DNA of 64,000 nucleotides from Petasospora fabianii (taxonomy: Eukaryota > Ascomycota > Saccharomycetes > Phaffomycetales > Wickerhamomycetaceae). Shown piece after piece: positions 7,541 to 50,581 of the stretch. Made by a program: the position numbers and the translations under genes. Numbering within the stretch: position 1 is the first letter of the stretch; every line of letters begins with the position of its first letter. The DNA is taken from positions 434,001 to 498,000 of the forward strand of contig CP048720.1 in NCBI GenBank assembly GCA_022641835.1, given 5' to 3'. Below the pieces are notes generated by a model that saw only the letters and a list, made by a program, of their open reading frames with translations, ran no database searches and was not told the origin of the DNA.

Positions 7541-9007
7541 ATGAGTGAACAAACGCAGAAGCAGGAGAAGCCACAGAAGCCAGTGGTCAAGTCGGCTGAT
7601 TCCCCAGCCGCAGACGATGCATCCGGAGAGAAGAAGCTTTCCAACAAGGAACTGAAAGAACTCAAGAAGAAACAAAAGGCTGAGAAACGTGCTGCTGAGA
7701 AGCAAGCCAAGGGTATTCCAAATCAGGCTGAGGAGAAGGCTGCACAAAACAAGCAGAAGAAAGAACAGAAGCAGCAGACTGCTGCCAACGCAGCACAAAG
7801 CAAGAAGCAGGTCAAGAAACCGGTCAAGAAGGTTGCCATATTCTCACATTTGGAACCCAAAGAGCAACGTAACGAGCAGGCACAGACGCAACAGATCTCT
7901 CAAGTACACCCAGCTATCTTGTCTCTTACGCTCAAACTCTCTTCATATGCCATTGTGGGCTCTATCCCACGTTGTAAAGCCATGCTTAAGGCCTTCCAGC
8001 GTGTCATCGCAGAGTATCAGACACCAGCCAACACTACACTCACCAGACATCTCACATCCCATCTTGGTTACCAGATCGATTATCTCAAAACCGCACGTCC
8101 GCTTTCTGTCTCTATGGGTAACGCCATTCGTTGGCTCAAACAAGAGATCTCCATGATCTCCATCGACACATTCGATGCCAACGCCAAAGCTGAGCTCGTT
8201 GAAAGCATTGACACTTTTATCAGGGAGAAGATCGATCTTTCAGATCGTGTTATTATCCAAAGCGCATCTGGTCATATCTCTAATGGCTCCACCGTCCTCA
8301 CATTTGGAAACTCCAACGTCCTACGTGAACTTTTCCTCTACGCTCATAAGGAGCAGAACAAACGCTTCACCGTTATTATTGTTGACTCCAGGCCCCTCTT
8401 TGAAGGTAAAAAACTCGCTGAAGCCCTCTCATCTAAGGGCCTCAAGGTACAATACGTCCTCATTAATGCCCTTACATCCGTCTTCCAGGACGTTGACACT
8501 GTGTTCCTTGGTGCCCATGCTATGCTCTCCAATGGATTCCTCTATTCACGTGTTGGTACCGCCCTTATCGCCATGAAAGCCAAGAGAGCCAACATTCCAG
8601 TCCTCGTCTGTTGTGAATCGATCAAATTCAGTGACCGTGTTCTCCTTGATTCCGTGACATTGAACGAATTGGGTGATTGTTCTGACCTCGTGGACTGGAA
8701 CCAGAACACACATGTCAAGACCCCAGGTGTGGCACTTCGCAAGTTCATTGAGACACATGAAGAGACAAAGGATACCCCTGTTACGAATGGTAATCAGAAG
8801 CAGAAGAATGGTAATGGTAAGCCACAGCAGGATGTTGGAAAGGACGAGCTCCCACTGGCGAACTGGAAGGACTCTCCATCTTTGAACATCTTGAACATCA
8901 TGTACGATCTTACACCACCAGAGTACATTCAAAAGATCATCACAGAGGTTGGTGCACTCCCTCCTTCTTCTGTCCCAGTCATTCTCAGAGAGTACAAGGC
9001 CACTTGA
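7541..9007 (+). CDS. GCD2: Translation initiation factor eIF2B subunit delta
   Basis: This 488-residue regulatory subunit belongs to the eIF2B guanine-nucleotide exchange factor that recycles eIF2-GDP and senses phosphorylated eIF2alpha. The N-terminal 110 residues are Lys/Gln-rich and include the conserved LSNKELKELKK segment. From about residue 120 the IF-2B alpha/beta/delta Rossmann-like domain follows, with the landmarks IVGSIPRCKAML, VSMGNAIRWLKQEI, VDSRPLFEG, FLGAHAMLSNGFLYSR and NIPVLVCCE, ending YDLTPPEYI and SSVPVILREYK as in S. cerevisiae. An in-frame ATG at 7472 would add 23 residues rich in His and Cys. I chose 7541 because MSEQ aligns with the family start. It is shorter than S. 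cerevisiae Gcd2 because the disordered linker is reduced. Confidence 0.95.
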   Translation: MSEQTQKQEKPQKPVVKSADSPAADDASGEKKLSNKELKELKKKQKAEKRAAEKQAKGIPNQAEEKAAQNKQKKEQKQQTAANAAQSKKQVKKPVKKVAIFSHLEPKEQRNEQAQTQQISQVHPAILSLTLKLSSYAIVGSIPRCKAMLKAFQRVIAEYQTPANTTLTRHLTSHLGYQIDYLKTARPLSVSMGNAIRWLKQEISMISIDTFDANAKAELVESIDTFIREKIDLSDRVIIQSASGHISNGSTVLTFGNSNVLRELFLYAHKEQNKRFTVIIVDSRPLFEGKKLAEALSSKGLKVQYVLINALTSVFQDVDTVFLGAHAMLSNGFLYSRVGTALIAMKAKRANIPVLVCCESIKFSDRVLLDSVTLNELGDCSDLVDWNQNTHVKTPGVALRKFIETHEETKDTPVTNGNQKQKNGNGKPQQDVGKDELPLANWKDSPSLNILNIMYDLTPPEYIQKIITEVGALPPSSVPVILREYKAT

Positions 9008-9295
9008 ACTAGAACCCAAGCGTGCAATTAGCTGGTGTTGAATAACTAATGAGCCTGCATTAGCGTCGCAAATAAATTGACTTGTAGTCTACGTTCTTAC
9101 TGGACGAATAAATGTAAAGGCATAGATTAAGCATTGGAAACACAAAAATAGTACAAACAACACTTTTGAAGGTGTGCCCCGTAATCAGAGGAACACGATC
9201 ATAAGACAAAAAACGGTGAGTAACAAAGAAACGGGCAAATAAAAGAACAAAAACCAAATATTACAGCTCAAAAGCATCCATTGTTATGGATAGAC

Positions 9296-10228
9296 TTAAG
9301 CGTGCACAGCCTGCTGACCCTCCTCAGCCCACTCCTGCTCGGCATCAGCCAATTGCTGCTCCTCCAACTCCTCCTCGTCCTCGTAGTTCTCGTCAGTTCT
9401 TCTGATGGACAAGGTTGGCTTAACAACAGCCTGGTCCAAAGTCCAAGAAGCCAAAGCGTTCTCAGCGTCAATGATGATCTGCTTAGAAGCCTCGTAACCG
9501 TCGTAAGCGGCTCTAGTCTCACCTGGGGTGACTGGAGAGTCGTCGAGCAACTCAAGCAAGGCCTTACCGTAACCAGCAATAAGGGCAAGCTTCTCAGAAT
9601 GCTCTCTCAAAGAGTCAAACTGGTAGTTGAATGCAACTTTGAGCTTCTCTCTGGTGATGTTAGAGAGCTGTGCCTCGGCAACAAGAGACTCAGCCTCGGC
9701 ACGGACAAGCTCCTGCTCGAGAACGACAATCTTTGGAGACTGTGGGTCCTTGTACTTCAAGTAAGCAATCTTGTCAGTAATTCTGTCCTTACGGTCACGA
9801 GATGGCTGAACAGAGCCCTCAATGTCTCTGATGGACTTGATGGTGAGTCTGTACTGGTCGTATCTGTCGATGAACTGGTCCTCGAGCTCACCAACCTCGT
9901 AGATGAGCACACCGAGCTTGTCAGTGATATCGGAAACGTCGTCGTCGTTATCCTCACCCCAGATGGAGAGCTGCTTGGCAACCTCTCTTCTCTCGTTGGC
10001 AACAACCTCCATAGCTCTCAAGACGTTCTTCTCAATCTTAACAAGCTGGGAAAGCTTTCTAGAGAGCTCTGGGCCAAACTGACCAGCGGTGTTTCTTCTG
10101 AGGGAGGAAACAATTCCGCCTTTACCGAAGAATCTACCAGATCTTGTGGAAGATGGTGGTGGGGCTGGGGACTGCAACTGGGAGGCAGTTGGGGCTCTAG
10201 CGTTTCTAAGAGAGTATGTTCTGTGCAT
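9296..10228 (-). CDS. PIL1: Eisosome core BAR-domain protein Pil1/Lsp1
   Basis: This 310-residue protein is close to S. cerevisiae Pil1 and Lsp1 over its whole length: MHRTYSLRNARAPTASQLQ at the N-terminus, RFFGKGG, LSRKLSQLVKIEKNVLR, and DRKDRITDKIAYLKYKDPQ. It forms the half-pipe scaffold of plasma-membrane furrows (MCC/eisosomes), with an N-terminal amphipathic segment that binds PI(4,5)P2 and a banana-shaped BAR domain at roughly residues 45-255. The C-terminal 50 residues are acidic. Choosing between the Pil1 and Lsp1 names needs a phylogeny. The ATG at 10228 directly abuts a predicted 3' splice site, so the frame extension to 10327 is intronic and not coding. It converges on GCD2. Confidence 0.93.
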   Translation of the reverse strand: MHRTYSLRNARAPTASQLQSPAPPPSSTRSGRFFGKGGIVSSLRRNTAGQFGPELSRKLSQLVKIEKNVLRAMEVVANERREVAKQLSIWGEDNDDDVSDITDKLGVLIYEVGELEDQFIDRYDQYRLTIKSIRDIEGSVQPSRDRKDRITDKIAYLKYKDPQSPKIVVLEQELVRAEAESLVAEAQLSNITREKLKVAFNYQFDSLREHSEKLALIAGYGKALLELLDDSPVTPGETRAAYDGYEASKQIIIDAENALASWTLDQAVVKPTLSIRRTDENYEDEEELEEQQLADAEQEWAEEGQQAVHA

Positions 10229-20524: not shown

Positions 20525-21634
20525 ATGACAAAGCCAAAGACTATGGAGACGGTCAAACAGGGCCAATTTTACGATACACATATCCCATACGCAAAGTTAA
20601 CAGGATCAACACCATATGATATTGGTCGTCAACACGGTTTAGCTGCAAAATTACAAATCTCTCGTGCTATTGAGATCTATGCTAAGCTCTATAAAGATTC
20701 TCGTGGTGTCACTTGGTCAGTTGCCCGTTCTCGTGCTCAAAAGTACTTGCCAGTGTTAAACAAGCATCCTGATATCTTACAAGAGTTACAAGGTGTTGCT
20801 GATGGTTCTGATAAAGATCTAATTGATATCTTAACACTCAACGTTAGAAGTGAAATCACAATGGTGGATGTCTCAGATGGTTGTACCTCTTTAGCACAGA
20901 GACAAACCACCACAGGTGATGTCTTTGTTGGTCAAAATTGGGATTGGATCCCTGATATTGACGAATGTACCATTTGGCTTGATGTGATTCAAGAGGGGAA
21001 ACCAAGAATCCTGTTTCTGGCTGAAGCTGGTATCATTGGTAAGTATGGCTATAACAACTCCGGTTTAGCTATTATGTTAAATGCCATTCCTGCAAACGAA
21101 GTGGCTTATGATAAGTTGCCAATCCATTTCACTCTGCGTAGGGCACTTGAACAGACTTCAGTCGATGCTGCTATCAACTACTTGAACCAAAATGGATGTG
21201 CAAGTTGTGCTAATCTTCTCATGGGTGATCCTAAAAGATGGTGTACTGTCGAAGTAAGTCCAAAGAAGATTGCAGTTGTTCTTCCAGATGAAACTACAGG
21301 TGTTGTCTCTCACACAAACCATATTGTTGATGAGGAACTTGCTAAGTTATTCCCCTGTGATAAGCCATTCATGTCGTCTCCAGTGAGATACAAGAGACTT
21401 ATTCAGTTGAATCAGAGCTCTGATGCCAGTTTTGAATCGTTTAGAGAAAGATTAAGTGATACAGAGAATGGCCATCAATCCATTTGTCACTATCCCGTTC
21501 CTAACGCTGTTGGTCTCGGTCGTTGTGTCACTCTTTACACCATCATTGTTAACACAACTACTCTCGAGGGAAACTTCACCATTGGCCAACCAGCTGATAA
21601 CCCAACACAGTACAAACTGTTTTTCAGTGTTTAG
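20525..21634 (+). CDS. Acyl-CoA:6-APA acyltransferase-like (peptidase C45) Ntn amidohydrolase
   Basis: This 369-residue protein belongs to the family of the Penicillium penDE product (isopenicillin-N acyltransferase, C45 Ntn hydrolases). The signature VSDGCTSLA lies at 116-124; Cys120 would be the nucleophile, exposed by autocatalytic cleavage after Gly119, which yields small and large subunits. The downstream GQNWDW (136-141) and NNSGLAIMLNA motifs fit the family. There is no peroxisomal C-terminal tripeptide (it ends FFSV), unlike the Penicillium enzyme, so it is probably cytosolic. The true substrate in yeasts is unknown; an N-acyl amino acid or small peptide amide is likelier than a beta-lactam. 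Codons are T/A-rich. Confidence 0.85.
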   Translation: MTKPKTMETVKQGQFYDTHIPYAKLTGSTPYDIGRQHGLAAKLQISRAIEIYAKLYKDSRGVTWSVARSRAQKYLPVLNKHPDILQELQGVADGSDKDLIDILTLNVRSEITMVDVSDGCTSLAQRQTTTGDVFVGQNWDWIPDIDECTIWLDVIQEGKPRILFLAEAGIIGKYGYNNSGLAIMLNAIPANEVAYDKLPIHFTLRRALEQTSVDAAINYLNQNGCASCANLLMGDPKRWCTVEVSPKKIAVVLPDETTGVVSHTNHIVDEELAKLFPCDKPFMSSPVRYKRLIQLNQSSDASFESFRERLSDTENGHQSICHYPVPNAVGLGRCVTLYTIIVNTTTLEGNFTIGQPADNPTQYKLFFSV

Positions 21635-27463: not shown

Positions 27464-28504
27464 TTATAGTTTGTTCTTACGCTTATAAGCATTGAGCAAT
27501 TCAATAGCCTTGTGTGCCATACCCAAACCCGATTGGTAACCATAGCCAGAGGCACCATAGTTATGGATCAAGATCTTTCCCTCAGGTTGGATCTCTTCAA
27601 GCTCAATTCTCACACCACCATGTCTCGATGGTCTCAATCCAGCTGCGACTCTTGAGATTACTAGTGGTTTGTCAAGGATTTTTGGGAGAAGTTCCGTCGT
27701 TCTCTTGATGATGTCCTCTGTTTGGTCTTTGAAAGTATCAGCAGTCCAGTCATCCTTTCCCATGAATCCACCAAGTACAAGCTCACCGTTGGAGTGTGGA
27801 CGTGGGATGATATATGTGCAATAGTCATCACCCCATCTCATCTTGTTTTCCTGAATATGTGGAGCACGAAGAACAACGACTTGACCACGGGTAGGATAGA
27901 TATTGGCATCTTGGACTCCACCAAGGGAACGAGCACCGATACCAGTGCAGTTAAAGACGTACTTTGTAGAACTAAAGAGATAAGCCTGGGATATATGTGT
28001 AATGACCCTTCTCTCGAATGTGACGCCAGTAGACTCAAGATACTTTTGGAAGTTTGCGAGGAACATTGGACAGTTGAAGTTCCACATAGTTGACTTGGCA
28101 CCAAACTTGACTCCTTCAGGAAGTTCGGACTCTGGAATGATGTGGTAGTCTTTCACATAGGTCTTACGGGAAGTAATTACCGCAGAGGACAAGTCACTAT
28201 CCCAAAACTCGGTTGATGGAAGATAGTCAAGACCACATTCTGGACCACCAAGTAGTCTCTGAATCTTTGACAGATTGGTATAAGTGTATTTGTCAAAGGC
28301 AATGGAGTCTGGATCTGAAGGACTGATACCGGAGAAGTTACCACCGGCCCATGGTGATGTATAGTTGATTGATTGGTCACCAGGGAGGTACTGGGCGGCA
28401 ACATGAATAGTCTTTGGGTCGACACCGAGATTGGTGATGAGCTCGTAAGCGGTGTAAAGACCGATGATTCCAGCTCCAACTATGACGTACTGGTTCTCAG
28501 ACAT
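27464..28504 (-). CDS. D-amino-acid oxidase, copy 1
   Basis: This 346-residue FAD enzyme oxidises D-amino acids to 2-oxo acids, ammonia and hydrogen peroxide. The dinucleotide-binding motif GAGIIG is at 10-15, the conserved active-site Arg lies in AAGLRPSRHGG, and the DAO signature HNYGASGYGYQSGLGMA is near the C-terminus. It ends in NKL, a near-consensus PTS1, fitting peroxisomal location beside catalase. A paralogue about 80% identical by eye lies at 30887-31927 with the hydantoinase between, all on the same strand. The 3' flanks of the two copies are also similar, pointing to a segmental duplication. A TATA-rich stretch lies at 28581-28600. Confidence 0.95.
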   Translation of the reverse strand: MSENQYVIVGAGIIGLYTAYELITNLGVDPKTIHVAAQYLPGDQSINYTSPWAGGNFSGISPSDPDSIAFDKYTYTNLSKIQRLLGGPECGLDYLPSTEFWDSDLSSAVITSRKTYVKDYHIIPESELPEGVKFGAKSTMWNFNCPMFLANFQKYLESTGVTFERRVITHISQAYLFSSTKYVFNCTGIGARSLGGVQDANIYPTRGQVVVLRAPHIQENKMRWGDDYCTYIIPRPHSNGELVLGGFMGKDDWTADTFKDQTEDIIKRTTELLPKILDKPLVISRVAAGLRPSRHGGVRIELEEIQPEGKILIHNYGASGYGYQSGLGMAHKAIELLNAYKRKNKL

Positions 28505-28965
28505 TTTGCCACTCGTGTTTGATCAACGGATGTACATGATGATCACATAGATCAGTTCTTTGTAGCTTTAGCTCATTCTCTATATATTTATATATAAATA
28601 AGGATGGTGCGCTGTGACTTGCTTGAAATGGAGGAGCGGACCAAAGCCAATGTAGTGGGAAGGCCAAGCGAGCTGCTCGGTACGGCTTACGGCTTTCGGT
28701 GGAAAGCTTTGAGAGTGTTATATAGAGCCCACTTTGTCTTAGCTAACCCCAAAGTGTACGGTTATGAACGCTTCAATAGTCGTTGCCAATAGACTTCCCT
28801 TGTAGTTCACATTCATTTTGAAGAATGAATCAATTATTCCCCGCTTTTCTCCAATCAGCACCTCGAACAGCGAGAGTATCTCTCTAGTCTCGACAGAGAA
28901 CTCATCTTTAAAGTGTTCATCTAGCGACCCAATGTTGCATGAATTACATCTCACAGAATCCATGG
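28505..28965. promoter_or_regulatory. DAO copy 1 promoter / hydantoinase 3' region
   Basis: These 460 bases hold a TATATATTTATATATAAATA stretch (28581-28600) about 80 bases before the DAO ATG. A 76-codon minus-strand frame at 28739-28969 has no recognisable features. I see no GATAAG element here, unlike the neighbouring promoters. Confidence 0.4.
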
Positions 28966-30507
28966 TCATTCAAATATTGGATTGAGAGCCCCTCTTGGAC
29001 CAGCAAGCAGGGACTTCCCTCTCCTAATGTACTTTCCATCACCTAGTGATCCCGTAATCCCATCACCATCTCTATCCCAAACCACTTTGCCCCTCAGAAC
29101 AGTCCATCTTGGCCAGTTTGTAAACTTCATCCCTTCAAATGGAGAATAGTCAATGTCATGATGCAACATCTCATTTTTGAGGACAAACTCCTCCATCTTC
29201 CCCTTCGGATACCACACAACCAAATCAGCATCATACCCAACTGCAATGCTTCCCTTCGATTGCATGCCGTACAACTTGGCTGGATTTGTACTACACAGTT
29301 CAACAAATCTCTGTGGTGTAATTCTGCCTGTCTCGACACCAAAGCAGAATAACAATGGGAGTCTAGTCTCAAGACCAGGGAGACCATTAGGGACCGCCAT
29401 GTAGTGAGGCAATCCATTGATCATACCTAGCTGCTTACCTTGTGGATGATCATACTTACTCGGAGCATGGTCACTTCCAAAGATTGTCACTGTACCATTT
29501 TGGATCATTCTCCAAACACCATCTAGCTCACTTGGCTCTTGACGGAGAGGTGGAGAGCAAATGTACTTGGCTCCCTCAAAAGAATCTTGTGAATCATGAT
29601 GATGACAGCATCCTTGCTTGAGGTATTCAGCTGTGAGGAAAAGGTACTGTGGACAAGTTTCGGCATATACCGGTGTGAGGGCCTTTTGTGCTGCCTCAAC
29701 GTGTTGAATCGATGATTCAGTCGACATGTGAACAATAAGGATAGGAGTGTCAATCAACTTGGAAAGAGCAATCACCCTATATGAGGCTTCATCTTCAGCT
29801 GTTAGTGGTCTAGAGACAGTGTGAAAGTATGGATCGGTCATTTTCTTCGCTTGGAGTTTGTTGTTGATGAAGTCGATGATATCAGAGTTTTCAGCATGGA
29901 TCATAGTTGTCATACCGACCTTTCTTGTCTCTAGCAGAATATCCAATAACTGAGAGTCATTGAGTTTATAACCAGGGTAAGTAGTGTATATCTTCAAACT
30001 TGTTATGCCTTCTCTCTCCACAACCTCTGGTAACAGTGATAACAATTGTGGTGTCGGGTCACTTACGATAAGATGGAATCCGTAGTCACAGTATGTTCCC
30101 TTGTTATTCGGCTTGGTGTGGTATCTCTCAACGAGCCCAAGTAGATCATTATTACCCTTTTCTTGAACTGCAAATGACAAAAACGATGTTGTACCCCCGG
30201 CAATGGCACTTCTTGATCCACTTTCAAAAGTATCACTTGGTGAACTCCCATCACCTTCCTCCACAACTCTATCCTCCATGCCTTCAACTTTAGTGTTGTA
30301 GTCGCTATAATCCTGTTCAAGATGGACATGTGCATCAATTCCACCTGGTGTTATCATTCCACCCTCTGCATCGATCACCTTGGTCCCTGAAAGCGGTGTG
30401 GTGGACATCGTATGGATCACACCATCTTTGACTCCTATGTACACGGACGGTGGGAGGATGTCGGATGACGTGACGATGTAGCCATTGTGGAGAACGAGGT
30501 CAAACAT
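28966..30507 (-). CDS. Dihydropyrimidinase / hydantoinase family amidohydrolase
   Basis: This 513-residue binuclear-metal amidohydrolase opens dihydropyrimidine or hydantoin rings to N-carbamoyl products. Metal ligands are all present: HVH (His60, His62), the carboxylated Lys172 in SLKIYT, His204 in HAEN, His260 in VHMST and Asp346 in GSDHAP. The N-terminal MFDLVLHNGYIV start and the C-terminal GRGALNP-like end (GPRGALNP) are typical of full-length enzymes. In Lachancea kluyveri the related PYD2 degrades dihydrouracil. The position between two D-amino-acid oxidases instead suggests D-hydantoin use. No beta-ureidopropionase or carbamoylase is seen nearby. GATAAG (minus-strand sense) is at 30585-30590. 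Confidence 0.93.
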   Translation of the reverse strand: MFDLVLHNGYIVTSSDILPPSVYIGVKDGVIHTMSTTPLSGTKVIDAEGGMITPGGIDAHVHLEQDYSDYNTKVEGMEDRVVEEGDGSSPSDTFESGSRSAIAGGTTSFLSFAVQEKGNNDLLGLVERYHTKPNNKGTYCDYGFHLIVSDPTPQLLSLLPEVVEREGITSLKIYTTYPGYKLNDSQLLDILLETRKVGMTTMIHAENSDIIDFINNKLQAKKMTDPYFHTVSRPLTAEDEASYRVIALSKLIDTPILIVHMSTESSIQHVEAAQKALTPVYAETCPQYLFLTAEYLKQGCCHHHDSQDSFEGAKYICSPPLRQEPSELDGVWRMIQNGTVTIFGSDHAPSKYDHPQGKQLGMINGLPHYMAVPNGLPGLETRLPLLFCFGVETGRITPQRFVELCSTNPAKLYGMQSKGSIAVGYDADLVVWYPKGKMEEFVLKNEMLHHDIDYSPFEGMKFTNWPRWTVLRGKVVWDRDGDGITGSLGDGKYIRRGKSLLAGPRGALNPIFE

Positions 30508-30584
30508 TGTTGTGTGTTCATTTCGGATAGTTCATTAGGTGTGACAGAACTAAAGGGAGAGAAAACCGATCTGTTTATATAGTC

Positions 30585-30633
30585 CTTATCGCAGGGAGAG
30601 GGGCTGTAAGATCTCGGTTCCCCAATCGGGTAA
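30585..30633. promoter_or_regulatory. Hydantoinase promoter: GATA- and Reb1-type sites
   Basis: CTTATC at 30585-30590 is GATAAG on the gene's strand, 78 bases upstream of the ATG. CGGGTAA at 30627-30633 is a Reb1-type core. Another GATAA is at 30681-30685. The arrangement (Reb1-type plus GATA) repeats that seen before the amidohydrolase at 20525. Confidence 0.45.
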
Positions 30634-30886
30634 CCGCACTCTCGCATCTCACACTACTTAGTATCCTCCGCTTAACTCCAGATAAAGATCAGAACTAGTC
30701 ATTACTATGATATGGGGAGATGATATGATCTCCTTCTTTATTATGCTATATGCTAGTTCTGACCCGTGGCTCTGGCAATTCCTATAGCGGTGACTCTTCC
30801 ACATGCAATGGTAGCTGAGCTAATCCTTTGCTCTAATCAACAGAATTGTAGTATTATTTCTCTCTATATATATATGCAGTGGGTTT

Positions 30887-31927
30887 CTAGAGTTTGTTCT
30901 TACGCTTATAAGCCTTGAGCAATTCAACAGCCTTGTGTGCCATACCCAAACCGGATTGGTAACCATATCCAGAGGCACCATAGTTATGGATCAATACCTT
31001 ACCCTCTGGCTGGATCTCCTCAAGCTCAATTCTAACACCACCATGTCTTGATGGTCTCAATCCAGCTGCGACTCTTGAGATTACTAGTGGCTTGTCAAGA
31101 ATCTCTGGGAGAAGCTCTGTCGTTCTCTTGATGATATCATCTGTCTGTTCTTTGAAAGTATCTCCAGTCCAGTCATCCTTACCCAAGAATCCACCAAGCA
31201 CAAGCTCACCATTAGAGTGTGGACGTGGAATAATGTATGTAGCATAACCTTCACCCCATCTCATCATGTTTTCCTGGATGTGTGGAGCACGGGCAACAAC
31301 GACTTGACCACGGGTAGGATAAACGTTAGCATCCTGGACACCACCAAGGAAACGAGCACCAATACCAGAACAGTTGAAGACATATTTTGTGGAGCTGAAA
31401 AGGTATGCCTGGGAGATATGTGTAATGACTCTTCTCTCAAATGTGACACCGATGGATTCAAGATACTTTTGAAGGTTTGCGAGGAAGATTGGACAGTTGA
31501 AGTTCCAAACAGTGGACTTTGTACCAAATTTGACACCTTCAGGAAGCTCAGATTTTGGAAGCACCCTGTAGTCCTTCATATAAGTCTTGAGAGAGGCAAC
31601 TTTCTCTGCAGGTGGATCGCTTTCCCAAAGTTCTGTAGATGGCCTATAATCAAGACCGCATTCTGGACCACCCAGAAGTTTCTGAATCTTTGGCAGATTG
31701 ACATAAGTGAACTTATCAAACGCAAGAGAGTCTGGACCTGAAGGACTGATACCGGAAAAGTTACCACCAGCCCATGGTGATGTGTAGTTAATGGACTGAT
31801 CACCTGGGAGGTACTCAGCGACAACATGAATAGTCTTTGGGTCGGCACCGAGATTGGTGATGAGCTCGTAAGTCGTATAAAGACCAACGATTCCTGCTCC
31901 AATTATAACGTACTGGTTCTCAGGCAT
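30887..31927 (-). CDS. D-amino-acid oxidase, copy 2
   Basis: This 346-residue paralogue of the gene at 27464-28504 has the same length, the same NKL terminus, the FAD motif GAGIVG, RPSRHGG and the DAO signature intact. Differences cluster in the segment after GLDY, around residues 90-130, which helps shape the substrate pocket in this family, so the two may prefer different D-amino acids. The open frame extends to 32065, but MPENQ at 31927 aligns exactly with MSENQ of copy 1. A TATA element (31988-31995 on the minus strand) and two GATA elements lie upstream. Confidence 0.95.
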   Translation of the reverse strand: MPENQYVIIGAGIVGLYTTYELITNLGADPKTIHVVAEYLPGDQSINYTSPWAGGNFSGISPSGPDSLAFDKFTYVNLPKIQKLLGGPECGLDYRPSTELWESDPPAEKVASLKTYMKDYRVLPKSELPEGVKFGTKSTVWNFNCPIFLANLQKYLESIGVTFERRVITHISQAYLFSSTKYVFNCSGIGARFLGGVQDANVYPTRGQVVVARAPHIQENMMRWGEGYATYIIPRPHSNGELVLGGFLGKDDWTGDTFKEQTDDIIKRTTELLPEILDKPLVISRVAAGLRPSRHGGVRIELEEIQPEGKVLIHNYGASGYGYQSGLGMAHKAVELLKAYKRKNKL

Positions 31928-32044
31928 TGTACTTGTTTGGTTACTCTTAATCAACAAATGACAGAGAAAATGGAAGATCAAACTCACTTTATATAAACAC
32001 CTCGTCTGGAAAAGCCAATCAAAAATTCCCCGCGAGTTACCGAA

Positions 32045-32059
32045 GATAAGCGACGATAA
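32045..32059. promoter_or_regulatory. Paired GATA elements upstream of DAO copy 2
   Basis: GATAAG (32045-32050) and GATAA (32055-32059) lie ten bases apart, about 120-130 bases upstream of the ATG. Paired GATAAG sites are the classic arrangement for Gln3/Gat1-type nitrogen regulation. Confidence 0.5.
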
Positions 32060-32268
32060 CACCAACGATTATAGCGCTATTCGAATCTTTGGTTAAAACC
32101 ACGCCACTATCGTCTATTGATGGGGCATATCTTCAAAGAACATATGAGTAATACCTCTACTATGCGAACACATGGGCATGTAATCAGAAAAATGGGAACT
32201 GAGTGAGTGAATGAGTAACCGGTGATGAGGAACTATAAACCATATGGAAAAAAAATAAACCGAAGTTT

Positions 32269-32340
32269 AGGTCCTATCCGGATTCGAACCGGAGTTGTTC
32301 GGATCAAAACCGAAAGTGATAACCACTACACTATAGGGCC
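32269..32340 (-). tRNA. tRNA-Gln (anticodon TTG)
   Basis: The minus-strand 72-base cloverleaf is nearly identical to S. cerevisiae tRNA-Gln-UUG: D-arm GTGTAGTGGTTATC, anticodon TTG at 32305-32307, T-arm GGTTCGAATCC, discriminator T. No intron. The acceptor stem begins GGCCCTA against TAGGACC, so position 3 is C opposite A70 where other yeasts have a T-A pair. This single mismatch could weaken the stem or be a sequence error. Confidence 0.9.
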
Positions 32341-32504
32341 CAAATGCATGAAGAAATTGGGGCTTATTTGTGTGATTCTATGATACCTCATAAGTTTCTT
32401 ATATATATAAGTATATTCATGAACTAATAGTATCTACAACACGTATTGAATAATAATTATTAAAAGCATATATATCTCTAATCACAAAAACTCGACAAAA
32501 ACAT

Positions 32505-34073
32505 TCAAAGCTTCTCCACATCTTCACCGACATTATCATCCAAATCTGGTCTTCTACCTTCATTGAAATCAATCTCATGAGTCTTTATGAAACCATCTTT
32601 GAAATATAACAAATCATAAGCACCCCAACAGATAAAGAAGACTGGAATCATGATGTATGAATCAATAAAAGTCTTATAATCGAAAGGTTTGAAAACTGAC
32701 CAACCTTGGACAAGGATTAACAATACACCAATGATGAGTCCAGCGATGTTAAGCCATGGGAACAATGGTGCAGTATATGGTAAATTTGCAAGTGAATGAC
32801 CCTGTGATACATAAGCTCTTCTAAATCTGAAATGGACAATGATGATTCCTACCCATGTGATGAAAGCAACGACACCTGTGACGTTAACAATGTATGAATA
32901 AGCAACAGATGAACCTGACTTATAAGAGAGAATGGCCAAGAATGAGAAAAGATGAACAAAATGAATAGCAACGAATGGGATACCTTTAGATGTTGTCTTT
33001 GTAAAGATCTTTGGACCATATCCGGCTTCTGCCCATGTGAAAAGGGCACGAGAAGCAAAATAGATGGCCGAATTGATGGAGGAAATACATGTAATAAGAA
33101 TCACGGTAGTGACCCAATACTTAGAGTTGGCCCAGCCAGCATTAGTCATTGCGATTGCCATTGGAGAACGCATAACTTTGTCAGTAGAAGTGAAGAATGG
33201 ATCGTTATAAGCAACAGTGATTCCATAAAAGATTGAGAGTCCGAAATAAACGTAAAAGACTCTAAAGATTGTGTTTCTAACAGCAGTTGGGATTGCCTTT
33301 CTTGGGTTTCTTGTCTCAGCAGCGATAACTGAAACACCTTCAACACCTGAATAAAAGACACCTGCATAGACAAAAGCATTAGCAATTCCCTTGAAACCTG
33401 ACTTAAGTGGATAATTACCAAATGGATTATCTGGTTTGTTATAATCGATACCACCAGCAGCATAAATGATAGCAAAGATGTAAAAACCTGTTAAGAATGC
33501 CAATTTGACAAATCCAAGAACGTATTCGGTTTCACCCCACCATGTAACATTAAGTAATTGGAAACAAGTGAAGAACCCCCAAAGAAGAAGGAACCAACCA
33601 TACATTGGGATCTTTGTAGTGTAAACTGAGAGTGCGGCACACAACGAGGTATACTCAGCGATACAGTTAGTGATCCATAACACAACATAACATAGTGCTA
33701 AAGTGGCACCAAACCCCTTTGAAACGAATCGTGAACCAAGCATGGCAAAATTTGCATCATATGCAGCGTTGAGTTCACCAATGGCAAACATCATGGCAAA
33801 TACAACGATTCCAACAATGGCAAACCCTGCAACCATACCAGCTGGACCACATGCTGCAAGCATGTTTCCCAACCCAAGAAAGACACCTGGACCAATGATA
33901 CCACATAGGGCAATAAGGTTAACCATTCTATTCTTAAGTCCAGCTTTAAGACCTGTATCGAGTATAACGTCTCCATGTTCAGTTTGATGATAAGCAGAAC
34001 CACTTGATCCTACGGGGTTTAATACCACCCCAACGGACTTCTCAAGATCAGATGAAGAGTTCTGTTTCTCCAT
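32505..34073 (-). CDS. Fungal amino-acid permease (YAT/APC family)
   Basis: This 522-residue transporter has about twelve hydrophobic segments. Family marks are GLKNRMVNLIALCGIIGPGV with the glycine-rich first membrane helix, the GVEGVSVIAAETRNPRKAIP loop after the sixth helix and the aromatic-rich ends. The tails are hydrophilic and acidic, with Lys residues that could carry ubiquitin. It imports amino acids by proton symport in this family; specificity cannot be read from sequence. The frame extends to 34127 only with a TTG codon; the first ATG is at 34073. It is divergent from the dipeptidase gene across 485 bases, suggesting co-regulation. Confidence 0.92.
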   Translation of the reverse strand: MEKQNSSSDLEKSVGVVLNPVGSSGSAYHQTEHGDVILDTGLKAGLKNRMVNLIALCGIIGPGVFLGLGNMLAACGPAGMVAGFAIVGIVVFAMMFAIGELNAAYDANFAMLGSRFVSKGFGATLALCYVVLWITNCIAEYTSLCAALSVYTTKIPMYGWFLLLWGFFTCFQLLNVTWWGETEYVLGFVKLAFLTGFYIFAIIYAAGGIDYNKPDNPFGNYPLKSGFKGIANAFVYAGVFYSGVEGVSVIAAETRNPRKAIPTAVRNTIFRVFYVYFGLSIFYGITVAYNDPFFTSTDKVMRSPMAIAMTNAGWANSKYWVTTVILITCISSINSAIYFASRALFTWAEAGYGPKIFTKTTSKGIPFVAIHFVHLFSFLAILSYKSGSSVAYSYIVNVTGVVAFITWVGIIIVHFRFRRAYVSQGHSLANLPYTAPLFPWLNIAGLIIGVLLILVQGWSVFKPFDYKTFIDSYIMIPVFFICWGAYDLLYFKDGFIKTHEIDFNEGRRPDLDDNVGEDVEKL

Positions 34074-34558
34074 GTTGTAGTCTATACCTCTTACTTGGCT
34101 TGACCTCAAATGAGTCCTGATAATCAAGCGACAAAGGATACGTATATATACTTATGGGTGAATTCGTTTGCTTCTCCTATAGAGTTTATGTCCCCGCGCC
34201 TAAATCTAATCCCGAGCCTCAACGAGGAAGATCTGCAATAGGAAACTGCGATCTGATTGGACAATATCCTATTAGAAGAGGTTGTTAATACACTGTAAAG
34301 GACTTCTCCAATCAATGGAAGGATCAAATGTATGATTAACTCTATGAATAAGAGATAAGGAGCGGTAGATAACCCCGCTCAGCCGAGACCAACTTCCCGA
34401 TCCCGCTTCTCTAAACTCTTCCGACATCGCGTCGATGTAGATGTGCGGGTGTGCTCATTTCTTCTCTCTTGGTTTGTATAAAAAGGTACAAAACGTTATC
34501 TGTTATTGAGGTTAAAGAGTTGTTTCTTTGGTCTCTAGAGAAGTGTAACTAAGACATT
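34074..34558. promoter_or_regulatory. Divergent permease-dipeptidase promoter with GATA sites
   Basis: GATAAG (34354-34359) and GATAA (34368-34372) lie roughly central to the 485-base region. TATA elements are placed for each gene: TATATATA at 34143-34150 for the permease and TATAAAAA at 34477-34484 for the dipeptidase. This is consistent with one nitrogen-responsive control region serving both genes. Confidence 0.55.
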
Positions 34559-35806
34559 ATGACACAGGATATTGGTGCTCGGTTCGATAAGTTGTGTAAG
34601 ACTGTCCCCATCGTTGATACCCATAATGACTTTCCCTATCTCTTGAGGGTTCAACTTCATAATGAGCTTCATTGCGATGGTAACAAGTTTGATTTTGATA
34701 GTTGGCTTGGATCTCATACAGATCTTAAGAAGATGAAAGAAGGTAAGATGGGTATTCAGTTCTTTTCTGTTTACATCGAATGTAAGAACGCAGATTATCT
34801 ATATGAAGATTTCAATGAGGCAAACTCAGCAGTGAGAGATACATTGGAACAGATCGATGTTACAAAGAGACTCGTTGATGAATATTCTCATTCTCTTCAG
34901 TTTGTTCGTACTGCAGATGAGGCACTCGACAAGTTTAGAGCCTCATCTGGTGGTAAGATCTCCATTACGTTGGGTGTTGAGGGTTTACACCAATGTGATC
35001 TCTCATTGGCAGTGGTGAGACAGTACTATGAACTAGGAGTCCGTTACATCACTTTAACACATAATTGTGATAATCCATTTGCCACTGCAGCATCTTCAGT
35101 CACTGGTGGTAAAGAAGACAAGGGTCTTACTGATTATGGTCGTGATTGTATCAAAGAGATGAATCGTCTTGGTATGATGGTTGATCTATCTCATGTTTCA
35201 TATAAGACTATGCATGATACACTTGACGTGACACAATCCCCAGTGATCTTCTCCCACAGTTCCGTATACAAGCTTACAAATCATGAAAGAAACGTTAGAG
35301 ATGATGTCTTGAAGAGACTTGAAAAGAATGGTGGTGTTTGTTGTGTTAACTTCCTACCTCTTTTCCTTAAGCAAGAAGGTAGAGAGAAATGTACTATTGA
35401 GGACGCTGCTGATCACATCTGTTACATTATTGATCTTGTTGGATGGGATCACGTTGGTCTAGGATCAGATTTTGATGGTATTCCAGCTGGACCTGAGGGA
35501 CTCGAGGATGTATCCAAATATCCAGAGTTGATCAAATTGGTTTGGGAGCGTACTAATGCTACTGAAGAGCAGATCGCAAAGCTTATGGGATTAAACGTTG
35601 TACGTGTTTGGAAACAGAATGAACTTGTGGCAGAACAGATTAAGAAGACAAAGATGTTACCAATTGAAACTAATTGGAAAGATAGAAAATGGGTCTTTTA
35701 TGAATACTCAAAGTTCTTCCCAGAGATCTATCCTGGATCACTCGAAGTTCAAGATAACGAATGGGATACAAGACAAGGTTTGGTCATTGATAAGAAGAAG
35801 AACTAA
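34559..35806 (+). CDS. Membrane-dipeptidase (renal dipeptidase) family zinc hydrolase
   Basis: This 415-residue enzyme is of the M19 dipeptidase family. All zinc ligands are visible: His22 and Asp24 in VDTHNDFP, Glu141 in GVEGLH, His212 in DLSHVS, His233 in FSHSS; the conserved GSDFDG (Asp304) follows. Family members hydrolyse dipeptides and tolerate a D-residue at the C-terminal position. The protein has no signal peptide and no GPI tail, unlike the mammalian enzyme, so it is likely cytosolic. It shares a promoter with the amino-acid permease and lies near the two D-amino-acid oxidases, which suggests it feeds them. Confidence 0.93.
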   Translation: MTQDIGARFDKLCKTVPIVDTHNDFPYLLRVQLHNELHCDGNKFDFDSWLGSHTDLKKMKEGKMGIQFFSVYIECKNADYLYEDFNEANSAVRDTLEQIDVTKRLVDEYSHSLQFVRTADEALDKFRASSGGKISITLGVEGLHQCDLSLAVVRQYYELGVRYITLTHNCDNPFATAASSVTGGKEDKGLTDYGRDCIKEMNRLGMMVDLSHVSYKTMHDTLDVTQSPVIFSHSSVYKLTNHERNVRDDVLKRLEKNGGVCCVNFLPLFLKQEGREKCTIEDAADHICYIIDLVGWDHVGLGSDFDGIPAGPEGLEDVSKYPELIKLVWERTNATEEQIAKLMGLNVVRVWKQNELVAEQIKKTKMLPIETNWKDRKWVFYEYSKFFPEIYPGSLEVQDNEWDTRQGLVIDKKKN

Positions 35807-36172: not shown

Positions 36173-37669
36173 ATGACCATTGACAAAGAAAGAGTTCATG
36201 TTGGTAAGAAGATCCGCAGCATCGCCATCATTGGTGGTGGTGCCTCTGGTGCTATTGCCCTAGACTCTTTAATCCAAGAGGGAACATTTGACAAGATCAC
36301 GTTGTTTGAACGTCGAGCAGAAGGTGGTGGTGTTTGGGTACTTGATACTAATCCTGATAAACTTGATGTACCACCTGGTGTTAGTCAACAGATTCTTGAT
36401 CCATCATTAAGAGTTCCAGAGTTGACTACTAAAACTGAAGTGTTACAAAAGAGACCATCACAACAGAGATATACGCATACGGCTTCGTACCAAGGACTTA
36501 GAACTAATATCCCAGAGCAATTGATGACTTTTAGTGATGATAAGCATTGGGGGGAACTTCCAGGTGAAAGAGTTGATGATCATTTTGTTCGTGGTGTTGC
36601 TATCCAAAGATACATTGAACGGTACTTAAACAGACATAGTGAGAACATTGTCTTCTCCACAACTGTGGAGAAAGTCGATAAGGACTATTCTGAGCCTTCT
36701 TCTCCCTTTGTGTTGACTTTAAGAACAGAGACTGATCAAAAGGATGAAGATGGAACACCATTAGATCGTTGGTGGACAGAACAATTTGACTCTGTTGTAG
36801 TTGCAGTGGGTCATTATCACGTTCCATACATTCCAAACGTCCCAGGTCTTGATGAAGTTTACAAGAGATTCCCAGGATTGGTACAACATTCAAAGACTTT
36901 TAGAGATGCTGAGAGTGAGCTTAAGGATAAGAACGTTGTTGTCATTGGTACACGTTCCTCTGGTGCTGATATTGTTGAATTGGGTTCTCAGTTTGCAAAG
37001 AAGATCTATCATTCACAAAGAGGTAAGAATCTATTAAGAAAGAATACTGCAACTAATGTTGAGCTTAAACCAGTCATTACCAAGTTTGAAATCACCAACT
37101 CTGGTGATATCGTGGTTCATTTTGCTAATGATACAACAGTCATTAACCCAGATCTTATCTATTATGCTACTGGATTCCGTTTCTCTTACCCATTCCTAAA
37201 CGACACATATGGATCTCATTTCACCACGGGGACCACTGTTCCAGATCTTTATCTTCACACGTTCTATACAAAGGATCCATTACTCACTTTTGTTGGTGTT
37301 CCAACTGATGCTATCTCATTACGTGCGTTTGAGTATCAAGCCGTGTTGGTATCGAGGTTCCTTGCGGGCAAGACTTCGATTCCATCTCGTGATGATCAAA
37401 TCATTTGGTGTTTGAATAGATTCAGGGAGAAAGGTGATACTAGAGCCTTCCATACGATTGATTGGGGTTCTAAATTGGAGTACTTAGAGTCATTAGTTGA
37501 GATTGGTGGTGGTTATGAAAAGATAGGTGATAATGGTAGACCTTTCCCAAAGTTTACTGAAGAGGATATTCAACTTCATAAGAGTATACAACAAAGACTT
37601 TTGGAGTTCTTCAGTGTTAATGAGAGTGAGATATCTGGTGTCACTGTACAGAGTGTTAGTCATTCCTAG
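36173..37669 (+). CDS. Flavin-containing monooxygenase family protein
   Basis: This 498-residue FAD/NADPH enzyme of the class B (FMO) type has the FAD-binding GGGASG at 21-26, the FMO identifying motif FPGLVQHSKTF at 233-243 (FxGxxxHxxxF), and an NADPH-binding VIGTRSSG at 257-264. Family members oxygenate soft nucleophilic N or S atoms; S. cerevisiae Fmo1 oxidises thiols and helps ER redox. Length and motif spacing are normal, but there is no ER membrane tail. Nearby flavoenzymes (two DAOs) and the convergent FAD synthase gene make a local cluster with high FAD demand. The substrate is unknown. Confidence 0.9.
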   Translation: MTIDKERVHVGKKIRSIAIIGGGASGAIALDSLIQEGTFDKITLFERRAEGGGVWVLDTNPDKLDVPPGVSQQILDPSLRVPELTTKTEVLQKRPSQQRYTHTASYQGLRTNIPEQLMTFSDDKHWGELPGERVDDHFVRGVAIQRYIERYLNRHSENIVFSTTVEKVDKDYSEPSSPFVLTLRTETDQKDEDGTPLDRWWTEQFDSVVVAVGHYHVPYIPNVPGLDEVYKRFPGLVQHSKTFRDAESELKDKNVVVIGTRSSGADIVELGSQFAKKIYHSQRGKNLLRKNTATNVELKPVITKFEITNSGDIVVHFANDTTVINPDLIYYATGFRFSYPFLNDTYGSHFTTGTTVPDLYLHTFYTKDPLLTFVGVPTDAISLRAFEYQAVLVSRFLAGKTSIPSRDDQIIWCLNRFREKGDTRAFHTIDWGSKLEYLESLVEIGGGYEKIGDNGRPFPKFTEEDIQLHKSIQQRLLEFFSVNESEISGVTVQSVSHS

Positions 37670-37736: not shown

Positions 37737-38548
37737 CTATAATCTCTTTTGTCGACCACCTCTTTCCCTTTCATCACCCTTTTCAAGCATATATGCTGGG
37801 TTATACTCACCCGTCTCTTTATCCAACAAGTATGGATTCCTTATTGTAGTATCAACCCCACCTAAACTTGTGAATCCTTGATCATACAACGAACAATATG
37901 AGATATTAGCTCTTAACAGAAAGCACCAAACCTCATCATATCTCCAATCAACTACTGGATGAACACGAACAAAATCTGGCCATCCAGAATCTGTACGTTG
38001 AATATCTTTAAGTCCCCTTGCGTATGGATCAGTACGACGTGTACCGACAATAATTGTCTTTATCTGTGTATGCTTATCAAGATACTCTTCAAATCCTTCT
38101 TTAAGGGTTGTATTATACTGGTCTAGATGTAATGAGTATTGTCTTGTAGTGTCATTGATGAACGTTACTAGTTCGGGGAATTGACGTTCATAATTAATCA
38201 TCACTGCGTTGAGTTGATGATGTTCATCAAGTGTTTGGTTATTAAACCCGGTATGTAGTACTGATAAGTACAAGATCAACATCACAAGACAGTCTTTACC
38301 TCCATTATAAGATATTGCAATTTGATCAAGGCTGGAAGGTTAGTACTTATCTCTTGATACAGTGGATATATGAGGTAAAAGACTCACCTAAACTGATCAA
38401 GCATGGTTTGTAGTACACTTAATGAGTGTCTAACCCTCTTCTGAGTTCTATCAAGTACATCATCGTTCTCATTGTTCAAATGAAGGAAAGTGTTAACGGC
38501 AGTATATGCCCTTTGACAAACGACACTTAGACGTTGTGAAGACTCCAT
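37737..38548 (-). CDS. FAD1: FAD synthase (FMN adenylyltransferase), two exons
   Basis: Exon 1 (38548-38388) starts MESSQRLSVV. A 56-base intron (38387-38332; GTGAGT, TACTAAC at 38339-38345, CAG) splits a Ser codon; exon 2 (38331-37737) opens with the PAPS-reductase-like P-loop region SYNGGKDCLVMLILYLS. The spliced protein is 251 residues, somewhat shorter than S. cerevisiae Fad1. Conserved parts are VGTRRTDPYARGLKDIQRTD, PDFVRVHPVVDW and the LYDQGFTSLGG segment, which bind FMN/ATP. It makes FAD from FMN and ATP in the cytosol. It ends 68 bases from the convergent monooxygenase gene. Confidence 0.95.
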
Positions 38549-38757
38549 GTTTCTTAAAAACCAAAATGAAAGACAAAGAGTTAGGAGAAAGGTGATATGA
38601 ACAAAGTGTTTCGTTAGAAACATATAGGTCCTATGTTCTAAGTCGTCTTTTGAACAGTCTTCTTAGTTCTATGTTGATTATGGAAAGTTCCCGAAGGTGA
38701 TAAAAAAGACCTCGGCGCGACTCGGCTTTAGTACTACATTAGGATCATTACTATATG

Positions 38758-38880
38758 TCCTATAATGCTTCAATATGTCTTATAATGCTTCAATATAGAT
38801 TCAATATGTCTTATAATGCTTCAATATGTCTTCAATATAGATTCAATATGTCTTATAATGCCTTATATGCCTTATATGCC
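38758..38880. repeat. Tandem AT-rich minisatellite
   Basis: Imperfect units of about 20 bases built on TATAATGCTTCAATATGTCT recur five or six times, with a variant TCAATATAGAT insert and a decayed CTTATATGC end. The array sits between FAD1 and the mitochondrial gene at 38923, upstream of FAD1. Confidence 0.85.
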
Positions 38881-38922
38881 TTCATTACCTATTTACATAT
38901 ACATAAGTCATAAGATGAAAGG

Positions 38923-48782: not shown

Positions 48783-50581
48783 ATGAAGCTTCAGTCTGTG
48801 GCAAGCATAATAATCCCTTGGGTGCTGATTGAACTCCAGTTGATTACTGCTACTGAAGAAACAACATGTTCTAAGTATACTCCGTTACCACGCTTGAAAG
48901 CTCTCCATACATCCACTGTCCTCGAATGAACTACCAAGTTGAAAAGGTTGTTCCAAGATCAGATGGTCGTTACGATGTGACCTGGAAGTCTAATGGTGTC
49001 AGCGCTCCAAATCCGCAGTTTATCTGGGAGGCCAAGATTCTCTACAACCAGATCATTCTCTGCTCGGTTAACCAGAATGTCCACAGGAACTGTAACTACG
49101 ATTGGACCGTGACATTCCCAATGGGTGCAACTCAGTCATCAACTGATTCAAACTTGTACTGCTTGGATCACTTCCAGATCCAGTTTGACTGGCACTGTAA
49201 TGGCGATTCTGCTTGTAAGAAGCAGATCAGCTCTTACTCGTCTGGTGATCAGCTTTCTGTGGATTATCGTATTGGCTATAAAACCAGTGACAGAGACACA
49301 CCACAATTCTGTTTTTACAAAACTGGAATCTGTTCATCTATAGGTTCAGTGTCTTCCTCTTCTGAGATTTTTCTGAGATCTCATCCTTTGAGTCCTACTC
49401 TTCAGATTTCTCTGAGGTTATCTCTGAGTCCTCATCATCTGAGGAATCATCCGAATCCTCTTCATCCGAGGAATCCTCCTCATCCACATCCTCATCCACA
49501 TCCCCATCCACATCCTCATCCTCTGAGTTTAATTCTGAGTCCTCTTTGTCCGAGGAGTCCTCTGAGAGTTCTTCGTCCGAGGAATCCTCTGAGTCATCAT
49601 CTGAGGCTTCCTTTTCCTCTTGCTCTTCTGGGGTTTTTTCGGAGTCCTCCTCCTTTGTGTCTTCTTCATCCAATTTCTCAGAATCATCCTCTTCCCTGAT
49701 TACCTCTGAAACCCCCTCTGAGACTGCTTCCTTCTCTGAGGTTACTTCGGAGACCTCCTTCTCTGAGACCTCCTCTTCAGATTTCTCTAAGTGTTCCCCC
49801 TCTTCCGCCTCCTCCGAACCCTCCTCATCTAAGGCTTCCTCCTCAGCCTCTGAGTTCTTTTCAACTTCGTCAGAGTCGTTCTCTTCTTCTGTAGCTTCAT
49901 CTGAGATCTTGTCTGTGACCTCTACTGAGACATCTGGTCTATCCACCACTGTGTTAACTATCACTTCTTGTTCCAGCAAGATTTGCTCGAAGACTTTCGT
50001 CACGACTGGTGTTGCCTGCCACTGTCATATCTGCTGGTGTCGAGACCATCTACACCACTTACTGCCCACTGACTACTGAAGGTGGTGCAGGTAATGCTGC
50101 ATCTTCACAGGGAACTTCTACTGAGGCTGCTATCACGAAGACTACTGCTGATGTTACTTCCGCTGTTGTTACGTTTGTCTCAACCAACGAGGCTGGCTCT
50201 ACCACCAATGTTGTCTCTACTATCGAGGGCTCTGTGGTTGAAACAGGTGTTGTTTCCTCCGGTGAATCTACTTCTACAGTTGTTGTTATTGCTTACACTA
50301 CCACTGGTAACAACGGTGAAGCCACCACTGCTTCCGCTACTGTCCCTGTTGGTACTGACGTTGTTTCCACTGTCACAAAAGGCCAAGTCTCCGGTTCTGG
50401 TGTCAGTGCCACAGATTCTGAGATCACCACTAGTGCATTCGTCAGCGTCATTCCTCAAGTATCTGCCTTTGAACCTCATTCTACTCCTTCCACTGTCTCT
50501 GTGTATGATGGTTTTGCCTCTACCTTGACTAGTGGCTGGTTGTTGACTTTGGCTTCGTTCTTGGTGTTCTTTGGAATCTAA
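48783..50581 (+). pseudogene. Frameshifted GPI-adhesin copy A
   Basis: This is a sister of the intact gene at 56894-58966. It opens MKLQSVASIIIPW (48783) and its last codons match the GPI-signal end of that gene. A one-base deletion near 48870-48900 puts the N-terminal domain (MNYQVEKVV at 48926 onward) out of frame with the ATG. After IGSVSSSSE at about 49360 the frame is lost again, so the Ser/Glu repeat is read in several frames. The C-terminal part (50009-50581) is open in a third frame. Only one CxxxxC module survives where the intact gene has two. With the damaged TATA region, this looks like a dead gene. Overlapping frames at 49395-50003 (minus) and 49546-50079 are by-products. Confidence 0.85.
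50029..50342 (+). repeat. Near-identical tract shared with 58414-58727
   Basis: I find one base difference in 314 (A versus G in CCCxCTGAC) against the intact gene, while both sides diverge sharply. This is a gene-conversion signature (see findings). Confidence 0.9.

Follow-up and report, generated by a model that had tools for sequence, protein, structure and literature searches.

We propose, tentatively, that in the yeast Petasospora fabianii a hydantoinase and the two paralogous D-amino-acid oxidases between whose genes it is encoded work together with an unlinked cluster of hydantoin-utilization-type genes. The trio lies in a 64,000-nucleotide stretch of contig CP048720.1 (hereafter C6; assembly GCA_022641835.1, positions 434,001–498,000, forward strand), which we call the window; the species appears below as Cyberlindnera fabianii, the name used in the analysis. 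Next to the trio are genes for an amino-acid permease and an M19 dipeptidase, and a reading made from the window alone (hereafter the sequence-only reading) had joined all five genes in a cluster for scavenging D-amino acids. The cluster is likely better recast as a three-gene core, oxidase–hydantoinase–oxidase, plus a second gene set on another contig, C9; that core and C9 set act in concert is, judging by gene content, a real possibility that falls somewhat short of probable. The family, place and intactness assigned to each of the five genes were borne out by open reading frame (ORF) coordinates (Table 1) and by Pfam scores far above the cut-offs: 102.7 and 98.2 bits for the two D-amino-acid oxidase (DAO) genes (cut-off 27.9), 102 for the hydantoinase (Amidohydro_1, 25), 289.3 for the permease (AA_permease, 24.6) and 366.9 for the dipeptidase (Peptidase_M19, 26). 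Genes, families and key residues can be read from the sequence at both loci.

A hydantoinase between two oxidase paralogs

The two oxidases, DAO1 and DAO2, share 86% protein identity, and the pair is under purifying selection (dN 0.076, dS 0.61, dN/dS 0.13). DAO1 is 97% identical to CYFA0S33e00518g1_1 and DAO2 99% identical to CYFA0S33e00562g1_1, two C. fabianii proteins whose genes share one contig of 76,156 bases in a second record of the species, so that the pair is not peculiar to the present assembly, which may represent a different strain. Their locus tags are 44 apart and would leave room for one gene between them if tags of this style advance in steps of 22. For oxidases, hydantoinases and carbamoylases alike, the homologs considered throughout are the 120 best rows per search. 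A tree of 69 sequences (DAO1, DAO2 and 67 of the 120 listed homologs) places DAO1, DAO2 and the two C. fabianii proteins in an exclusive clade with support of 100/100, and among these sequences the duplication is confined to C. fabianii. Similarity between the flanks of the duplicated genes did not go beyond E 0.03 upstream and 0.7 downstream. Several DAO paralogs in one budding yeast are also known from Ogataea parapolymorpha, for which the available text of PMC9844085 gives five D-amino-acid oxidases (DAAO) and one D-aspartate oxidase (DASPO); the C. fabianii pair differs in being tandem, restricted to the species in our data, and placed on either side of a hydantoinase.

The sequence-only reading had taken the pair for general D-amino-acid oxidases. 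Its observation that two full-length paralogs flank the hydantoinase stands; the substrate class probably has to be revised, as residue Arg223 of both proteins points to D-aspartate oxidase. In a profile alignment, Arg223 falls on the arginine of EHFIRDGSG in 6rkf and of GFTRQ in 9vpf, two D-aspartate oxidases that we take to be the human and the Cryptococcus humicola enzymes, respectively. No arginine stands at this position in the DAAO structures 1c0i (presumably the Rhodotorula enzyme) and 7ct4, nor in two of the three further DAO-like genes of the genome, the third, on contig C4, having been left out of this alignment. The partner of Arg223 in 6rkf is chain residue 225, and the tyrosine seven residues on is chain residue 232; chain Tyr232 would equal the Tyr223 of a review, an offset of nine that makes the 6rkf arginine human Arg216. 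Arg216 of human DASPO binds the side-chain carboxylate of D-aspartate, and its replacement in R216Q brings a gain of activity on D-alanine, according to the available part of PMC8260693. With the counterpart of this human residue present in both, DAO1 and DAO2 are probably D-aspartate oxidases and not general D-amino-acid oxidases. Among 124 aligned rows (DAO1, DAO2, two paralogs from the same genome and the 120 listed homologs), Arg223 is present in 109, and the Arg-Pro pair of the DAO family, R291-P292, in all. Both proteins end in -NKL, which would be a non-canonical peroxisomal targeting signal 1 and occurs in 6 of these rows (SKL, 42; AKL, 25); this end fits a peroxisomal location and is no proof of one.

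The hydantoinase narrowly passes the NCBIfam model for D-hydantoinase/dihydropyrimidinase (TIGR02033; 398 bits against a cut-off of 393.25), and the paralog on C9 scores 424.7 bits. The catalytic residues that the sequence-only reading had found visible in the cluster are complete here: H60, H62, K172, H204, H260 and D346, which we take to be the two-metal ligand set including the carbamylated lysine, are invariant in a 48-row alignment. The predicted fold is confident (mean pLDDT 92.3) and matches Saccharomyces kluyveri dihydropyrimidinase as well as bacterial D-hydantoinases. Its most distinctive feature is a stretch of about 20 extra residues after HVH, the first metal-binding motif, of which residues 69–86 are predicted to be disordered and lie beside the metal site. 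We scanned 61 rows (the two C. fabianii copies and the homologs P0001–P0059) for such an insert; 8 failed the motif pattern and were left unjudged, and among the 53 that matched it the window protein alone has an insert of this size, P0052 having two extra residues. Likewise, in the 24 rows displayed of the 48-row alignment, insert letters appear in the window row alone. The insert presumably falls in stereochemistry gate loop 1 of hydantoinases, and the window protein further reads YPGYKL where many displayed rows read YPRYKL, a stretch that we assume to be the second stereochemistry gate loop. An intron in place of the insert was considered and rejected, since the frame is open and none of the patterns tried picked out a donor or branch site. 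A tree of 66 sequences (the two C. fabianii copies and 64 of the 120 listed homologs) groups the window hydantoinase with P0010 and P0011 at a support of 96/78, just under the mark for a firm branch. Since these two lack the insert, the window protein is probably an old paralog into which the insert came later.

A hydantoin-utilization-type gene set on contig C9

Hydantoinases yield N-carbamoyl amino acids, and the window enzyme alone therefore cannot release a D-amino acid. Carbon-nitrogen hydrolases were sought across the genome (12.3 Mb in 16 contigs; all genome-wide family searches were six-frame, with only the best candidates scored), and none of the nine matches lies in the window. A 10-kb stretch of C9 (C9:14500–24499) encodes, in this order, a Zn2Cys6 factor, a hydantoinase, an Asp/Glu/hydantoin racemase, a D-2-hydroxyacid dehydrogenase, an NCS1-type transporter and a carbon-nitrogen hydrolase. 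By family membership this is a hydantoin-utilization-type gene set, with hydantoinase, carbamoylase, racemase and transporter as neighbors; the window holds the hydantoinase alone. The C9 hydantoinase is 70% identical to the window copy and 99.6% identical to the C. fabianii protein P0001. The racemase-family gene (Pfam, 180.7 bits) matches allantoin racemase 5lfd (E 2e-22) and the putative hydantoin racemase 3qvj (4e-21), and the transporter (Pfam, 315.8 bits) matches the hydantoin permease Mhp1 (E 8e-15). The hydrolase, encoded at positions 8655–9671 of the 10-kb stretch, resembles D-carbamoylases, with matches to 6lei (3.6e-83) and 1erz (2.1e-75) over residues 21–330 of 338, and holds all three of FPELAL, YRKxHLPG and ICNDRRWPE, presumably the contexts of the catalytic Glu-Lys-Cys triad.

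With these parts, the proposed pathway would run as follows. The NCS1-type transporter would import a 5-substituted hydantoin, which the racemase would equilibrate; the two hydantoinases would open the ring to give N-carbamoyl-D-amino acids, the window copy with its changed loops taking a different subset of substrates; and the D-carbamoylase would release the D-amino acid together with ammonia and CO2. Peroxisomal oxidases would then convert the D-amino acid by deamination into a 2-oxoacid, which the C9 D-2-hydroxyacid dehydrogenase might reduce. The window oxidases would deal with acidic D-amino acids and the three other DAO-like genes with the rest, the permease and the dipeptidase being possible helpers. 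The substrate of every step, the metabolic handover between the loci and any co-regulation are inferred. That the hydantoinase is connected with D-amino-acid oxidation, as the sequence-only reading had it, is plausible and gains support from the C9 cluster, but the substrates of the oxidases would be acidic and the carbamoylase-like gene lies outside the window.

The 26 best homologs of the C9 carbamoylase are 66–88% identical to it; three bear yeast names (Candida jaroonii, Ogataea philodendri and Priceomyces carsonii) and the other 23 were classed as yeast on similarity. Among the matches listed, a Roseococcus protein at 56% is the first to bear a bacterial name. A tree built from the 26 yeast-type sequences, the query and 25 of the other 94 homologs puts the yeast sequences on one side of a branch supported at 100/100. 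The best 120 carbamoylase rows, about three quarters of which are outside the tree or nameless, include no named filamentous fungus. On these sequence comparisons, the gene most likely came from a bacterium.

Linkage in other yeasts was gauged indirectly, rows of different searches with an identical longest-contig size being taken as probably from one contig. Hydantoinase and yeast-type carbamoylase rows shared a size in 6 of 3,120 pairs, compared with 1 of 11,280 in a control that paired hydantoinase rows with the 94 remaining carbamoylase rows; these shared contig sizes suggest that the two genes are linked in several yeasts. DAO rows matched none of the other 94 carbamoylase rows (0 of 11,280 pairs) and matched the yeast-type rows in 1 of 3,120 pairs (345,581 bases); DAO rows matched one another in three pairs, so that DAO pairs recur. 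A close link between a DAO and a hydantoinase gene has so far been seen, within the best 120 rows per search, in C. fabianii only, and the same is true so far of the full arrangement of a hydantoinase between two D-aspartate oxidases.

Hydantoin utilization is known as a bacterial trait, and bacterial hyu clusters combine the hydantoin permease Mhp1, a racemase, a D-hydantoinase and a D-carbamoylase. The C9 stretch brings the same kinds of gene together within 10 kb, and its carbamoylase is 54–56% identical to many listed bacterial homologs. It differs in having a yeast host and a fungal regulator of the Zn2Cys6 type, in the addition of a D-2-hydroxyacid dehydrogenase and in a transporter that is only weakly Mhp1-like, and C. 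fabianii has, on another contig, a second hydantoinase flanked by probable D-aspartate oxidases. A budding yeast with a hydantoin gene set and a D-carbamoylase of seemingly horizontal origin would extend the trait to eukaryotes, and may live on hydantoins, an unusual class of nitrogen compounds. Enzymes of the hydantoin pathway are used in the industrial production of D-amino acids; C. fabianii would give them a second natural setting, and would offer a catabolic module built stepwise, the cluster first and then a paralog beside the likely downstream oxidase. The titles and abstract openings returned by literature searches describe no yeast hydantoin cluster or DAO–hydantoinase cluster, and a mention deeper in the texts is possible; nor does the available part of PMC2628649 describe either.

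Related genes were seen elsewhere in the genome. A second transporter resembling NCS1 lies beside the C9 cluster (C9:10121–11842), near the contig end, with oxygenase-like and sugar-transporter-like genes, all recognized by eye. Contig C1 carries a second racemase-family gene, C6:414322 an allantoinase-like gene (by eye), and C4:740775–745780 two adjacent carbon-nitrogen hydrolases of nitrilase-like kind, closely similar to each other by eye.

Weighing of the alternatives

Several points weigh against a joint role of the core and the C9 set. The two loci lie on different contigs and have no direct link. The motif CGG-N9-CCG occurs once in the promoter shared by permease and dipeptidase and once upstream of the C9 regulator, and there is otherwise no shared regulatory element; 9-mers common to window and C9 promoters gave no convincing motif, two words occurring in three of nine promoters and none in more. 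Contig sizes match for only 6 of the 26 yeast-type carbamoylase rows, and hydantoinase and DAO rows match in 1 of 14,400 pairs, in Brettanomyces naardenensis (355,796 bases; DEKNAAC105362 and DEKNAAC105379). On C9 the Mhp1 match is weak, the transporter stays under its NCBIfam cut-off (TIGR00800, 334.4 against 353.1 bits), the racemase comes near the cut-off of no NCBIfam model, and the ten NCBIfam families matched by the carbamoylase include no D-carbamoylase model, the best being N-carbamoylputrescine amidase (114.7 against 410.25 bits). Although C. fabianii proteins for the DAO pair and the C9 hydantoinase are among the data, the closest listed row is 70% identical for the window hydantoinase and 88% for the carbamoylase, with none above 90% for either; a strain difference, a broken gene or an annotation gap may lie behind this. 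As to the oxidases, the available part of PMC9844085 reports that DAAO and DASPO activities cannot be told apart by homology and that one enzyme annotated as DASPO was broad in specificity, so that the argument from Arg223 is not conclusive. At the position of human Arg237, DAO1 has Met248 and DAO2 Leu248; an arginine there is not general to D-aspartate oxidases, 9vpf likewise having methionine, and both DAO1 and DAO2 have Gly249 where 115 of the 124 rows have glutamine. Finally, the inserted loop of the hydantoinase is acidic in sequence, which does not favor acidic substrates.

The last point bears on a more specific version of the proposal that we consider quite improbable: that the window hydantoinase has been neofunctionalized to open acidic hydantoins, such as carboxymethylhydantoin, and with the C9 D-carbamoylase would supply a route through N-carbamoyl-D-aspartate or -glutamate to the D-aspartate oxidases. 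If true, this would be a eukaryotic hydantoin-to-D-aspartate route put together from a carbamoylase probably gained from bacteria, a yeast hydantoinase of long standing and a recent duplication of the oxidase.

The genes of the window could also be neighbors by chance, a D-aspartate oxidase having been duplicated in tandem with a relocated copy of the hydantoinase ending up in between, and the permease and dipeptidase being functionally unrelated. We hold this to be possible, if rather doubtful. It would account for a tRNA-Gln gene that splits the permease from the DAO block, for a duplication limited to C. fabianii in the DAO tree, and for the fact that hydantoinase and DAO rows share no short contigs elsewhere; since the genome has 26 permease-family matches (the window copy, one on C10 and 24 further, two of which are pieces of one frame), a permease next door is unremarkable. 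A hydantoinase landing precisely between two DAO genes is improbable at random, at one slot in about 6,000 genes by a rough post hoc estimate, and all three of these genes are intact. The number of GATA sites is in keeping with chance. The sequence-only reading had GATA-type sites in front of four of the five genes, which is literally correct but weak: HGATAR was found (expected) 0 (2.0) times upstream of DAO1, 2 (2.8) of the hydantoinase, 3 (1.3) of DAO2 and 4 (2.5) in the promoter that the permease shares with the M19 gene, a sum of 9 against 8.6 that is near chance and leaves GATA-type regulation unsupported. With the promoter of the neighboring flavin-containing monooxygenase-like (FMO) gene included, the density of HGATAR is 6.4 against 4.9 per kb, and that of GATAAG 1.48 against 0.62, relative to the other intergenic stretches of the window, a mild excess of uncomputed significance. 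Four GCGGGG sites in 1,665 bp, compared with 7 in 11,666 bp (P 0.019), resemble what we recall as the Mig1 site; they were picked post hoc and not used.

A single scavenging pathway made up of the five genes, with the dipeptidase cutting L-D dipeptides, the permease importing D-amino acids and the oxidases and hydantoinase finishing the breakdown, appears unlikely. The five are intact and adjacent, and the M19 gene is the sole M19 match in the genome. There is a partial precedent in the basidiomycete yeast Cryptococcus humicola, which, according to the available parts of PMC7831105 and PMC8708985, uses an FAD oxidase for acidic D-amino acids with a dedicated permease for growth on D-aspartate; the available part of PMC7831105 mentions no hydantoinase, and the C. 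fabianii permease fits a lysine-specific permease best among three solved matches and gives no hint of acidic specificity. The dipeptidase has neither a hydrophobic N-terminus or signal peptide nor a hydrophobic tail in its sequence, and with such a protein and a transporter for amino acids, "release, then import" does not fit. The release–import–oxidize scheme of the sequence-only reading is further undercut by the lack of a carbamoylase in the window, and the near-chance GATA sites do not help it. Nothing in the results links the permease or the dipeptidase to the core, and both may be bystanders.

The hydantoinase might instead act in reductive pyrimidine breakdown, as the dihydropyrimidinase following dihydropyrimidine dehydrogenase, the role of PYD2 in Lachancea (Saccharomyces) kluyveri. 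The S. kluyveri enzyme, 2fty, is indeed the nearest solved structure by both sequence and fold (TM 0.90, query-normalized; 36% identity), and most listed homologs with descriptive names are called dihydropyrimidinase. The C. fabianii protein differs in its insert after HVH, and the genome search found no dihydropyrimidine dehydrogenase, the sole match to Fer4_20, a domain of that enzyme, lying in a 2147-residue frame that, from its size, we take for glutamate synthase; the hydantoinases are thus unlikely to serve uracil breakdown. The C9 paralog, moreover, keeps other company, sitting with a racemase and a D-carbamoylase-like gene that are both needless for pyrimidines. We consider this explanation very improbable, and retain, as the tentative preference, cooperation of the core with the C9 set.

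Permease, dipeptidase and neighboring genes

The features of the locus are given in Table 1. The permease has a 72% identical paralog on C10, around which no DAO or hydantoinase was recognized among the five ORFs of at least 150 residues in the surrounding 10 kb. In the dipeptidase the M19 motifs DTHND, GVEGLH, DLSH, FSHSS, NHERN and GSDFDG, which presumably hold the zinc site, were each found once (at residues 20, 139, 209, 231, 241 and 302), again in agreement with the catalytic residues noted earlier; its closest solved structures are entries of the dipeptidase GliJ.

Table 1 Features of the oxidase–hydantoinase locus and adjoining genes (window coordinates)
Feature	Position	Strand	Description
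DAO1	27464–28504	-	346 aa; member of the FAD-dependent DAO family; Arg223, predicted to be a D-aspartate oxidase; ends in -NKL
Hydantoinase	28966–30507	-	513 aa; D-hydantoinase/dihydropyrimidinase family, divergent paralog, ~20 extra residues after HVH
Hydantoinase residues 69–86	30250–30303	-	Predicted disordered part of the insert; coordinates derived from residue numbers
DAO2	30887–31927	-	346 aa; tandem paralog of DAO1; Arg223, predicted to be a D-aspartate oxidase; ends in -NKL
tRNA-Gln (UUG)	32268–32341	-	Between DAO2 and permease; absent from the sequence-only reading
Amino-acid permease	32505–34073	-	522 aa; AA_permease; pathway membership doubtful
M19 dipeptidase	34559–35806	+	415 aa; sole M19 match in the genome; pathway membership doubtful
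FMO-like gene	36173–37669	+	Flavin-containing monooxygenase-like; adjoins the dipeptidase; nothing ties it to the locus

The FMO-like gene is adjoined in turn by a gene at 37737–38900 with a PAPS_reduct domain and a probable intron, named FAD synthetase-like by eye. With the two DAO genes this makes for a flavin-rich neighborhood, which may be due to chance. Farther off in the window, two genes with Flo11 domains lie at 48926–49699 and 56894–58966, the second with flocculin type 3 repeats, and a gene at 20525–21634 belongs to the acyl-CoA:6-aminopenicillanic acid acyltransferase (AAT) family, which is unexpected in a yeast.

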